Below, one piece after another: positions 38,557 to 42,473 of a stretch of DNA of 64,000 bases. The stretch is from assembly GCF_002270355.1 (NCBI RefSeq), contig NZ_NJFZ01000004.1, positions 124,001 through 188,000 of the forward strand. Reading direction: 5' to 3'. The notes beneath the pieces were generated by a model. That model was not told the DNA's origin. It was given only the letters and a program-made list of their open reading frames with translations, and did no database searches. Origin of the DNA: Flectobacillus sp. BAB-3569 (lineage in GTDB: Bacteria; Bacteroidota; Bacteroidia; Cytophagales; Spirosomataceae). The position numbers and the translations under genes were made by a program. Positions within the stretch are counted from its first letter, which is position 1, and each line of letters starts with the position of its first letter.

Positions 38557-39173
38557 TTATTTTTCAAGAATAACATAAGAGTTTTTCGCTCCTGGTACTG
38601 AACCTGACACTACGATAAGGTTTTTCTCAGCATAAACTTTCAATACTTGCAAGTTTTGAACTTTTACGCGGTTACCACCTGTACGACCTGCCATGCGAAG
38701 ACCTTTGAATACGCGAGATGGGAATGAACATGCACCAATTGAACCTGGGTGACGTCCGCGGTTGTGTTGACCGTGTGTTTGACCACCAACACCACCAAAT
38801 CCGTGGCGCTTAACAACACCTTGGAAACCTTTACCTTTTGAAGTACCGATTGCGTCAACGAAATCGCCTTCTGCAAAAAGCTCAGTTGTGATAACTGCAC
38901 CTAATTCAAGTGATTGTTCGAAAGACTTGAACTCAACCAATTTTTTCTTTGGAGTAGTTCCTGCTTTTTTGAAGTGACCTAATAATGGTCTAGAAGTGTG
39001 CTTCTCTTTCTTCTCGCCGTAGCCTAATTGAATAGCGCTATAGCCTTCTTTTTCTACTGTTTTTACTTGTGTTACAACACAAGGGCCGGCTTCGATTAGC
39101 GTACAAGGAACAGCAGTGCCATCCGCGTTGTAGAGGCTAGTCATACCGATTTTTTTCCGATAATTCCAGACAT
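38557..39173 (-). CDS. rplC: 50S ribosomal protein L3, apparent one-base deletion in a poly-A run
   Basis: The body from residue 11 on is an intact L3 ([99 protein letters not shown]). L3 normally starts [12 protein letters not shown]. The minus strand does give ATG TCT GGA ATT ATC GGA AAA AAA from 39173, but then runs into TCG GTA TGA. One more A in the seven-A run (39150-39156) would restore the frame. The span, 617 bases, is one short of a multiple of three. Without correction only an internal ATG at 39144 would give an uninterrupted product, lacking ten conserved residues. It heads the ribosomal cluster; rpsJ, often its upstream neighbour, is not present. Confidence 0.88.
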
Positions 39174-39604
39174 TTTATTATTGAATAAAACGTTAAAAAA
39201 TAAAATAAAAAACTTATTTACAACGAGTTACGTTTTTGAGCTATTGGCTCGACGCAAAACGGACTGCAAAGGTCGGGATTTTATTTGGCACTAACAAAAA
39301 AGTACACAAAAAAATCTCAAAACTATTTGAGTGACAGAAAATTGAGGAAAAAAGCGACAAGAAAAGTGCGGACGAGGCTATGCTCGTGAGACGAGTCCTG
39401 TGTAGCTTAATACTCAACTTTGCAAACTGGGCATTCAGTAAAGCAAGCCAGTATCAGTTCTGACACTAATCAACCACTGTAGTTCTTTGCGGGCTGCGTG
39501 GTTGTACTTTCCAAAGAAGTTTGCCATTTGATTCGTATTCTCTAATTTCTTACTGAGTTCTGCCAACCCTTTGTAAGACACAGCGAATCGTGGCGCCCTA
39601 ATTG
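39174..39604 (-). ncRNA. Candidate leader or stand-alone RNA ahead of rplC
   Basis: A clear promoter (39610-39639) drives transcription on the minus strand into this region, and no convincing gene follows for 430 bases until rplC. The part between 39360 and 39600 is distinctly more GC-rich than its AT-rich flanks, which suggests a structured RNA. CTCGT at 39383-39387 can pair with ACGAG at either 39372-39376 or 39391-39395, so two exclusive hairpins are possible. A weak hairpin plus seven T (39308-39331) lies further on and could be an attenuator. A 48-codon GTG-started frame (39435-39581) also exists; it ends VRTDTGLLY and I do not recognise it. No RNase P, SRP, tmRNA or tRNA signature was seen. 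Confidence 0.35.
39308..39331 (-). terminator. Weak terminator or attenuator upstream of rplC
   Basis: A 6-bp stem (CTCAAA with TTTGAG, 4-base loop) is followed on the minus strand by A and seven T. It lies about 135 bases before rplC, inside the presumed leader. The stem is short, so the call is uncertain. Confidence 0.35.
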
Positions 39605-39609
39605 GACTG

Positions 39610-39639
39610 CAAAATTAGAGAATAGTTTTTGAAATACAA
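39610..39639 (-). promoter_or_regulatory. Promoter ahead of the ribosomal cluster
   Basis: TTG (39639-39637) is followed after exactly 19 bases by TAATTTTG (39617-39610) on the minus strand. It is one of the best matches to the Bacteroidota consensus in the window. Predicted transcription starts near 39604, about 430 bases before rplC. Confidence 0.65.
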
Positions 39640-39682
39640 TGAGTTACAGTAAAAAAATAATATTTTTTTTAGTTTTTTTTAC

Positions 39683-39754: not shown

Positions 39755-41461
39755 CTATAAATTGCCTTTTTTTAATTCTTTTACAGTAAAGTCCGCAGCT
39801 CTAGCCGATAATGCCATATACGTAAGCGATGGATTCACATTAGATGATGACGTCATGCAAGCGCCATCAGTTACAAAGACGTTTGAACATCCCCAAACTT
39901 GATTGTGTGCATTCAAAACAGATGTTTTGGGGTCGCGCCCCATCCGTGCAGTACCCATCTCATGAATACTTAAACCAAAGCCGGGTTCATAATCATACGT
40001 TTCGATATGCTTAAATCCTGAGGCTTCGAGCATCTCAGCAGCGTCATTCTTCATATCTATACGCATTTTACGTTCGTTTTCTCCAAACTCTGCCGACATA
40101 ATCATTTGTGGTTGTCCCCACTTATCTTTTTGGTCTTTGCTCAATCTGACATGATTTTTATAATCTGGTAAGGTTTCAGCAAATCCCATAATATCTAAAT
40201 TCCACTCTCCGAGTGGCTGTGTAATTTGTGTTTTAAAATCAGCGCCAAACTCTTCTTGCGACTCTCCTCTATCTTTTGAACTACCTCCTTCATAGCCAAA
40301 TCCACGCAAATAATCCCGCTTGTCGCTTCCAATATTGCGGTATCTTGGAATATAAATCGCATTGGGGCGTCGCCCTAGGTAATACTTATCATTATAACCA
40401 TCATGCTTGCCTCGTGCACCAATACCAAAATGATGATCCATCAAATAATGTCCTAGTGCACCACTGTCATTACCTAATCCATTGGGAAAACGATTGGAAG
40501 TAGAATTCATTAAGATATAGGTCGAACCCAGCGCCGAAGCATTCAGAAAAATCACTTTTGCATAAAACTCTGTCCATTCGTGGGTGTTTTCGTCGATAAC
40601 TCTAACACCAGTTGCTTTACCTTTTTTCTCATCATATATGATAGAGTTAACAATCGAATGTGGGCGGACGGTCAGATTGCCTGTTTTACGCGCCGCTGGG
40701 AAAGTAGCAGACTGCGAACTAAAATAGGCGCCAAACGGACATCCACGCATACACATATCTCGAAGCTGACACTTGGCACGTCCTAAGGCAAGCTGTTCGG
40801 GAGTTGGCTGTGTAAGGTTTGCGGTACGTGAGTGAATCACATGACGATTAGGAAATTTTGCTTTGAGCTCTTTCCCAAAATGTTCTTCAACACAAGTCAT
40901 CGGAATGGGTGGCTGGTAAACACCATCGGGCAAATGAGGAATACCATCACGGTTTCCTGCGATTCCTGCGAACTTTTCGGCATGAGCATACCATGGAGCA
41001 AGGTCTTTGTAACGAATAGGCCAATCTACTCCAATGCCTTCTTTAGCATTAGCCTCCAAGTCCATATCACTTAAACGTAATGAGACTCTCCCCCAAGTAA
41101 TAGACTTTCCTCCTACCTGCCAACTTCTAATCCAGTCGAAGCGTTTTTCTTCGACATAGGGAAAATCAATATCTTTAGCAAAATGATGTTTGGTCGATTC
41201 AGTAATCGTGAACCCTGTGCGTTGGTGGATAGGATAGTTCTTCATTTCCTCAAGCGGCACTTGTCCCCCATGTGGAAACTCCCAAGGATTCATTAAAGCG
41301 GTGTGATAATCTTTTACATGTTCGATCATACGACCACGCTCGAGCACCAAAACCTTTAGTCCTCTTTCGGTAAGTTCTTTGGCCGACCATCCGCCACTTA
41401 CGCCCGACCCCACCACGATAGCATCGTAAGTATTTTTTTCTTTATTTGGTAAAATATACAT
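39755..41461 (-). CDS. GMC-family FAD oxidoreductase
   Basis: The start at 41461 gives a 568-residue protein with an N-terminal FAD-binding fold (YDAIVVGSGVSGGWSAKEL, then VLVLERG). WGRVSLRLSDMDLE and the Cys-rich CQLRDMCMRGCPFGAYFSS are typical of the gluconate 2-dehydrogenase/GMC branch. The C-terminal GMC block is HEMGTARMGRDPKTSVLN with the active-site His, then SSNVNPSLTYMALSARAA. Members oxidise sugars, sugar acids or alcohols. The small subunit that usually lies next to such genes (gluconate dehydrogenase subunit 3) is absent, and there is no signal peptide. The in-frame ATG at 41494 would add 11 unconserved residues. Substrate unknown. Confidence 0.87.
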   Translation of the reverse strand: MYILPNKEKNTYDAIVVGSGVSGGWSAKELTERGLKVLVLERGRMIEHVKDYHTALMNPWEFPHGGQVPLEEMKNYPIHQRTGFTITESTKHHFAKDIDFPYVEEKRFDWIRSWQVGGKSITWGRVSLRLSDMDLEANAKEGIGVDWPIRYKDLAPWYAHAEKFAGIAGNRDGIPHLPDGVYQPPIPMTCVEEHFGKELKAKFPNRHVIHSRTANLTQPTPEQLALGRAKCQLRDMCMRGCPFGAYFSSQSATFPAARKTGNLTVRPHSIVNSIIYDEKKGKATGVRVIDENTHEWTEFYAKVIFLNASALGSTYILMNSTSNRFPNGLGNDSGALGHYLMDHHFGIGARGKHDGYNDKYYLGRRPNAIYIPRYRNIGSDKRDYLRGFGYEGGSSKDRGESQEEFGADFKTQITQPLGEWNLDIMGFAETLPDYKNHVRLSKDQKDKWGQPQMIMSAEFGENERKMRIDMKNDAAEMLEASGFKHIETYDYEPGFGLSIHEMGTARMGRDPKTSVLNAHNQVWGCSNVFVTDGACMTSSSNVNPSLTYMALSARAADFTVKELKKGNL

Positions 41462-41699
41462 AAGCCGTTGAAAATTGGGACTAGAATAACACATTTCAAA
41501 AATCTCAAGTTACTCCTTTTTTTCTATAACTCAATCCAGAGCTGACTGGCATTTATTTTATTTTTTATCAACAAAATCAAATTTTATTTATTTCAAGATC
41601 TGATCTATCATTTGATAAAATTATAGATGTTTTCGACAGATATCTCAAATATTTAGCGCCACATAGAATAGTTATCCTTCATAAACCAATGGTCTTCTT

Positions 41700-41729: not shown

Positions 41730-42473
41730 ATGAAAATAACCATTATTACTGTCTCTTTTAATAGTGAAGCAACTATCAAACAAACGATTGATAGCGTTTT
41801 GGCACAAGACTATCCCGATGTCGAGTATATTGTTGTGGATGGTGCTTCAAAAGATGGGACAGTGGATATATTAAAATCGTATGGTGACCGCATTAAATAC
41901 ATTTCAGAAAAAGATAAAGGAATCTATGATGCACTCAACAAAGGGCTAAAACTAGCAACTGGTGATGTTGTTGGCACAATTGGTTCAGATGACTTTTTAC
42001 CTAATTCCAGCGTATTGGGTCATGTAGCAGAAGCTTTTATCCAAACAGGAAAAGATGTTATTTACGGAGATTTACAGTACATCAATCCTGATAATGATGA
42101 AAAGATTGTCAGATATTGGAGTTCGGGAGAATATAAAGTGGAAAATTGGCTAAAGGGTTGGATGCCGCCACACCTTTCATGTTATATCAAAAGGGAGGCA
42201 TTTGAAAAATATGGTAACTATATCATAGACTTCAGCTGTTCGGGCGATTATGAGCTTATGCTTCGCATGATGTACAAACATAGACTATCGGCGGGTTACA
42301 TTCCCGAAGTATTGATGACCATGAGAAATGGCGGAACTAGTACAGCTTCGTGGAAGCACCGCTATCGTGCCAATATGGAAGACCGTCGTGCATGGGAACT
42401 CAATCAATTACAACCCAAATGGTACACGCTCTGGATGAAACCACTTTCGAAGATAAGTCAACTATTTACTTAA
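41730..42473 (+). CDS. Family 2 glycosyltransferase
   Basis: A 247-residue GT-A fold enzyme: MKITIITVSFNSEATIKQTI at the N-terminus, VEYIVVDGASKDGTVDIL with the nucleotide-sugar-binding Asp, then VGTIGSDDFLP as the metal-binding D-x-D-like motif near residue 90. CSGDYELMLRMMYK corresponds to the acceptor-side acidic motif. No membrane segment is evident. Such enzymes transfer a sugar from a nucleotide donor in polysaccharide or glycolipid synthesis. No other polysaccharide genes are adjacent, so the product is unknown. The gene is transcribed alone and shares a terminator with yciI on the other strand. Confidence 0.9.
   Translation: MKITIITVSFNSEATIKQTIDSVLAQDYPDVEYIVVDGASKDGTVDILKSYGDRIKYISEKDKGIYDALNKGLKLATGDVVGTIGSDDFLPNSSVLGHVAEAFIQTGKDVIYGDLQYINPDNDEKIVRYWSSGEYKVENWLKGWMPPHLSCYIKREAFEKYGNYIIDFSCSGDYELMLRMMYKHRLSAGYIPEVLMTMRNGGTSTASWKHRYRANMEDRRAWELNQLQPKWYTLWMKPLSKISQLFT

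Follow-up and report, generated by a model that had tools for sequence, protein, structure and literature searches.

The best-known control of an S10 operon is that of Escherichia coli by L4 which, according to PMC10931766, acts at two levels, on transcription via a Rho-independent terminator within the leader and on translation. Leaders of ribosomal protein genes (r-leaders) tend to be lineage-specific, and the available part of PMC7247131 places a candidate L4 leader before rplC-rplD-rplW-rplB in Archaeoglobi only, its candidates from Bacteroidia or Flavobacteria being leaders of L13, S4, S15 and S16; the string "Cytophag" does not occur in its main text. For Flavobacterium psychrophilum, 64 structured 5' regions have been reported, rplC not being named among them in the accessible part of PMC9723704, and the same source states that flavobacterial mRNAs lack Shine-Dalgarno sequences. 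Our literature search, conducted outside bioRxiv and most subscription journals, found no report of an RNA ahead of rplC in Cytophagales.

Here we describe an RNA ahead of rplC, the first S10-operon gene at this locus, on the minus strand in the 6.6 Mb genome of Flectobacillus sp. BAB-3569. It appears to be new, i.e., a folded RNA of one branch of the family, for which we found no earlier description and which is absent from Rfam. Like the E. coli S10 leader, it is a long structured 5' region of an S10 operon, with operon-protein control as a candidate function; unlike that leader, it stands where rplC comes first, and neither a strong terminator nor an Rfam family was found for it. The Archaeoglobi L4 candidate resembles it in being a structured RNA restricted to one lineage and placed before the same genes, although it is archaeal and is set against our RNA by description only. 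Coordinates below are those of the window, i.e., the whole stretch of 64,000 nucleotides that was analysed, and the features are as follows.

39610-39640, minus strand: distal promoter; ATTG at 39640-39637, 19 nt, then TAATTTTG at 39617-39610; predicted start near 39605
39348-39605, minus strand: structured RNA, about 258 nt; start and end both predicted
39523-39598, minus strand: domain I, a long hairpin of variable but matching sequence; 39598-39584 pairs with 39535-39523, and 39578-39573 with 39553-39548
39555-39569, minus strand: tip of domain I, GGGUU-GGCAG-AACUC
39471-39504, minus strand: middle hairpin, CAACCAC/GUGGUUG, of variable sequence; from the single-sequence fold
39400-39467, minus strand: domain II, a long arm pairing GUGU-CAGAAC-UGAUACUGG... 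with ...GAGUAUUA-AGCU-ACAC
39427-39438, minus strand: tip of domain II, CUG-AAUGCC-CAG
39357-39401, minus strand: 3' stem P5, ACAGGA/UCUUGU, enclosing the hairpin ACGAG/CUCGU at 39387-39372; followed by a T-rich stretch at 39353-39348
39267-39298, minus strand: proximal rplC promoter, between the RNA and rplC; TTTG at 39298-39295, 20 nt, then GACCTTTG at 39274-39267
38557-39173, minus strand: rplC (L3), true start at 39173 (MSGIIGKK)

The distal promoter is of the Bacteroidetes type, with a TAnnTTTG box. Its predicted start, placed using a box-to-start distance from PMC9723704, falls at about 39605, i.e., 432 bases ahead of the true rplC start, in good agreement with an earlier note on this DNA, made from the sequence alone, which had put it about 430 bases before the gene. 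That note had also counted this promoter among the best matches in the window, and here our results differ: the window holds 104 TAnnTTTG boxes, and 39 of these, the distal promoter included, reach a match of at least 3/4 at -33, with five reaching 4/4. The quality of its match is ordinary; what sets it apart is conservation. A scan for sigma-70 sites returned three (shuffle mean 4.5), none of them the proposed promoter. The G+C-rich character ascribed to the region was evident, the fraction being 0.446 in 39348-39605 against 0.275 upstream and 0.297 downstream.

At the DNA level, matches to the RNA region occurred in 13 of 59 genomes, a count that includes the genome of the window. Three motifs (GGTTGGCAGAACT, GTCAGAACTGATA and TTGAATGCCCAG) kept their order in all 30 of the closest rplC loci, with up to two substitutions, and a fourth (TAAGCTACACAGGA) was found in 24 of them, the six misses all belonging to genus g20, where it escaped simple patterns. 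The stretches between the motifs differ among relatives in both length and sequence. When the window's RNA was folded as a single sequence, the result was unremarkable (z = -1.38, with 17 of 200 shuffles equally good), so the case for the RNA is a comparative one. With 19 sequences, RNAalifold produced a hairpin with the loop GGCAG and a long arm closing in the loop AAUGCC. For the whole RNA, a model of 34 pairs on 19 aligned relatives had 90.5% of cells paired and two-sided changes at 17 pairs, and its covariation score was 0.336, compared with 0.056 to 0.125 when slid. By helix, the cells paired amounted to 64.9% (P1b, on alignment A1, where register shifts occur in some rows), 100%, 96.7%, 93.4% and 93.0%.

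Domain II is the most conserved part of the RNA, and the covariance model R1 was built on it. Its 22 pairs had 95.1% of cells paired, with a covariation score of 0.399 versus 0.025 to 0.120 slid, and two-sided changes at nine pairs versus 5.6 in shuffles; further pair types were not above shuffles (134 of 500). The long arm (columns 190-196 with 235-241) was paired in all 19 rows. A first reading of this domain, with the hairpin GUGUC/GAUAC, fails in genus g20 and was rejected. Because two bases are common to the base of domain II (GUGU/ACAC) and P5 (ACARGA/UCUUGU), which overlap there, these two helices compete. In domain I the closing stem differs in sequence from genus to genus, and a swap test of its two halves was mixed: the native combination paired better than all cross-genus swaps in 10 of 20 loci, and better than the average swap in 17, the exceptions to the latter being L033, L042 and L100. 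At the place of the middle hairpin, several other genera show other hairpins (by eye). Judged by these comparisons, the folded RNA is real.

The alternative pairings for CTCGT that the earlier note had seen are present in the window, but relatives keep only one, ACGAG/CTCGT (39387-39372), the hairpin held within P5. This pairing is retained by matching changes, i.e., ACGGG/CCCGT in L025 and ACAGG/CCTGT in L024 (by eye), and the upstream CTCGT is unchanged in L024. Some strictly conserved stretches are left unpaired by the model. The two loops, GGCA and UGCC, complement each other, and a loop-loop contact between them perhaps joins the two domains; as both are invariant (19 of 19 rows), the alignment speaks neither for nor against it.

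A covariance search across relatives, as the earlier note had proposed, found R1 as one copy each in 52 of 200 genomes of the family; these belong to 10 of its 36 genera, among them Flectobacillus, Arcicella, Aquirufa and Siphonobacter. With stricter filters, under which weak matches are lost, it was found in 8 of 291 order-level genomes, every one of the same family, and in just one of 395 phylum-level genomes, namely that of the window. With laxer filters on 40 distant genomes nothing reached E<=0.001, the two matches returned having E values of 0.38 and 0.79; a plasmid collection contained no match to the RNA. Rfam 15, at gathering as well as lax thresholds, gave no credible family match at the RNA, the best lax match (E 0.032) falling in an A+T-rich stretch outside it. 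A structured RNA or leader unrelated to known ones, as had been suspected, is thus borne out by the covariation, the linkage to rplC and the lack of an Rfam family.

The linkage was complete for the matches that could be compared: 49 of 49 lay directly upstream of rplC on the same strand, the other three of the 52 having no listed rplC coordinates. An exact pattern of the core, searched in one genome per species (84,980 species), returned 48 stretches, of which 44 were followed by rplC, three ran off the end of the sequence and one had no rplC nearby; in the 44, 226 to 334 bases separated the start of the pattern from a position some 30 bases into rplC. The records matched are titled Flectobacillus, Arcicella, Pseudarcicella, Aquirufa, Sandaracinomonas and Siphonobacter, among other names. 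Pattern matches also occurred, with labels as deposited, in five metagenome bins labelled Spirosoma fluviale and in one record labelled Cellulophaga. The match lacking a nearby rplC (L153, 4904-4935, minus strand), in a record labelled Alkalicoccobacillus, is probably due to chance, and one at a sequence edge (L143, 76-110, minus strand), in a record labelled Paenibacillaceae, may be contamination. On the other side of the RNA the neighbour changes: the longest upstream open frame over 12 loci represented about eight kinds of gene, and 1 of 13 loci had none. The constant link of the RNA is therefore rplC.

Between the RNA and rplC lies a second promoter, of which the earlier note made no mention. 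It is conserved in 8 of the 10 RNA-bearing genera, that of the window included, and gives these a way to transcribe rplC without the RNA. The 10 loci of Aquirufa and Sandaracinomonas lack the conserved proximal box, and their best promoter-like site scored 6 to 8 of 10, whereas the 23 other loci reached 7 to 10; this score sets Aquirufa apart in part only, since L031, L037 and L102 also score 7. In these two genera the RNA seems to be the only leader of rplC. Loci of the same two genera (L042, L047, L048, L050 and L100) show, by eye, a short hairpin in the last 80 bases before rplC, CTTACAA...TTGTAAG (CTCACAA...TTGTGAG in L050), at the position that the proximal promoter takes in other genera.

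The earlier note had placed a weak terminator after the RNA. A hairpin followed by a T run is indeed present (39331-39308), but this weak A+T hairpin was found in the window's genus only, and a strong intrinsic terminator was absent behind the RNA in all 33 loci scanned, for hairpins of up to 45 nt, a range outside which the whole of P5 falls. The 33 loci represent 32 genomes, because L031 and L102 denote a single site of one of them. The same scan detected a terminator in 16 of 16 loci of the sister clade, used as a control. At a lax threshold, a weak A+T-rich terminator-like hairpin appeared in 12 of the 33. Outside Aquirufa, every locus with a recognised arm has a T-rich stretch (4 to 7 of 8) after P5, the arm in L031, L099 and L102 having escaped simple patterns, and such a stretch may end the transcript there.

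Of 17 R1-free loci that we read, 16 carried a different conserved RNA ahead of rplC (L083 to L095, L097, L098 and L101; e.g., L083, 248-361, minus strand, and L084, 974-1104, plus strand). Twelve of the 17 keep fusA-rpsJ in front of rplC. The elements of the RNA are the hairpin GAAGGUC...GAAACCAC, the strand CAUCUGA and, followed by a T run, GGUCAGAUG...CAUCUGACC (with GAAACCGC in L091). It has an antiterminator, CAUCUGA/UCAGAUG, and an intrinsic terminator, the latter present in all 16 loci. Over the 15 loci aligned, the terminator helix had 96.7% of cells paired, with two-sided changes at four pairs, and the antiterminator helix 99.0%, with a two-sided change at one pair in one locus; L091 was left out of this alignment (A3) and of the covariance model R2 because its sequence reads GAAACCGCAT, yet it has the attenuator. 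R2 represents an evident attenuator in front of rplC and, like R1, an RNA family that Rfam lacks.

R2 matched 116 of the 200 family genomes at E<=0.001 and 108 (18 genera) at E<=2.1e-10, and all 90 of the 108 strong matches compared, i.e., those with rplC coordinates, lay upstream of rplC. None of the strong matches fell in the 52 R1 genomes. The eight weak matches (E 4e-5 to 9e-4) were discounted as terminator noise without inspection and, because three of them fall in R1 genomes (G001, G120 and G213), the statement that R1 and R2 never occur together holds for strong matches only. Outside the family there were weak R2 matches only (nine genomes in one search, three in another), which were likewise treated as noise. 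R1 and R2 show no visible likeness in sequence, and R2 has an antiterminator and intrinsic terminator; the two occupy the same place ahead of rplC, and the proximal promoter stands behind both. This layout of attenuator, proximal promoter and rplC in the sister genera indicates that the family places an RNA control element here.

In a tree of rplC and rplD from 30 taxa (13 with R1, 16 with R2 and one with neither), the R1 taxa formed one clade with an ultrafast bootstrap of 100, with Aquirufa and Sandaracinomonas nested inside it; the tree is midpoint-rooted, and it does not place the genus lacking both RNAs with certainty. At the thresholds used, 40 of the 200 family genomes had neither RNA, and eight genera lacked both in every genome sampled. 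L096 (G030, genus g27), the one locus examined from these eight genera, carries neither ahead of rplC.

Comparison thus gave a conserved promoter, a covarying fold, one copy per genome and a fixed site directly upstream of rplC, a linkage that simple inheritance might also explain. Because this site is occupied by another RNA switch in the sister branch, the R1 RNA is probably a control element for making ribosomes. On balance we lean, by a modest degree, toward a clade-specific structured RNA acting in cis as the leader of the rplC-rplD-rplW-rplB... (S10) operon; the RNA itself is well supported by comparison, and its function as an r-protein leader is what we infer from sequence. Transcription from the distal promoter would pass through the RNA into rplC, and the folded RNA would bind a protein of the S10 operon, with L4 and L3 as prime candidates, whenever the supply of that protein exceeds that of rRNA, with lower expression of the operon as the consequence. 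The simplest reading, by analogy with the L4 control of the E. coli S10 operon as described in PMC10931766, is that L4 is a candidate repressor acting through the leader. Since a strong intrinsic terminator was not found behind the RNA, control would be expected to work through Rho or at the level of translation and not as classical attenuation, and in 8 of the 10 genera the proximal promoter would provide a second, unregulated input. The conserved motifs matched the organism's own 23S rRNA no better than shuffles did (lowest p 0.11). Mimicry of the rRNA site, a frequent though not invariable trait of r-leaders, was rejected for the window's RNA, whose short 23S matches were no better than those of shuffles.

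The main rival of the leader reading is a stand-alone noncoding RNA, transcribed on its own and acting elsewhere on RNA or protein targets. We consider this rather unlikely; it is favoured by the second promoter before rplC in 8 of the 10 genera, the window's included. The RNA's own conserved promoter, the T-rich end past P5 outside Aquirufa where the arm is recognised, and the strictly conserved stretches left unpaired would all suit a free RNA. Against this, none of the 49 comparable matches lies away from rplC even though the upstream neighbour changes, a strong terminator was absent from the 33 loci scanned, and in Aquirufa and Sandaracinomonas there is no conserved proximal promoter to transcribe rplC separately. 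A small-molecule riboswitch ahead of the operon would account for strictly conserved unpaired bases within a covarying frame, but given the narrow distribution and the single target operon of ribosomal genes, we regard it as quite improbable.

A housekeeping RNA (6S, SRP, RNase P or tmRNA) too diverged to be recognised is scarcely more probable than a riboswitch. 6S RNA has a free-standing promoter and a size similar to that of the R1 RNA, and it is unaccounted for in the window's genome, where RF00013 had no match at E<=0.001; that test is weak for the phylum, because 5 of 14 control genomes matched and the Bacteroides control was not among them. The distribution differs, however, R1 being confined to 10 genera of one family, and the two domains do not resemble 6S, which is a single rod. 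ARAGORN found neither tRNA nor tmRNA in the window, and at the place of the RNA there was no credible match in Rfam. As for a short protein gene, whether live or a remnant, the frame of 48 codons at 39581-39435, whose conservation as a protein, with structural covariation absent, would by the earlier note have spoken against the RNA, is open in the window's sequence and in L023; it has early stops in four of the six loci translated, three of these four from the same genus, and the conservation tracks base pairs, covariation being present. Such a gene we consider extremely improbable.

If the cis-acting leader reading is combined with the R2 results, sister clades of one family might steer the same S10 operon with two unrelated RNA devices. 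One, R2, would be an antiterminator/terminator switch; the other, R1, would be a two-domain RNA, perhaps joined loop to loop and lacking a strong terminator, which has kept its own promoter, may act as a free RNA and, with the second promoter lost in Aquirufa and Sandaracinomonas, may act there as sole leader. We put this forward as a tentative proposal; if true, a core ribosomal control element has been replaced within one family. With two RNA families unknown to Rfam occupying one site in its sister clades, the family offers a natural series, i.e., RNA plus second promoter, RNA without second promoter, and attenuator in the RNA's stead. Such a series allows one to test how a core ribosomal control element is swapped, and does so in a phylum whose mRNAs have no Shine-Dalgarno sequences (judging from flavobacteria, in PMC9723704), and the second RNA in the sister clade adds interest to the r-protein leader reading.

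In the window, rplC has one A fewer (39140-39173, minus strand) than all nine other aligned rows, and this breaks the frame just past the true start, so that the open frame has 205 aa in the window's genome compared with 223 aa in four others of the genus; the missing A probably reflects a homopolymer error in the draft assembly, or else slippage. After rplC come rplD, rplW, rplB and further S10 genes. Upstream of the RNA is an oxidoreductase gene of the GMC type (39755-41494), which sits between the RNA and a glycosyltransferase gene (41730-42473). In genera g10 and g57 (L026 and L029) the nearest large frame upstream of the RNA is a glycosyltransferase gene, and the oxidoreductase gene beside the RNA in the window is an apparent insertion.
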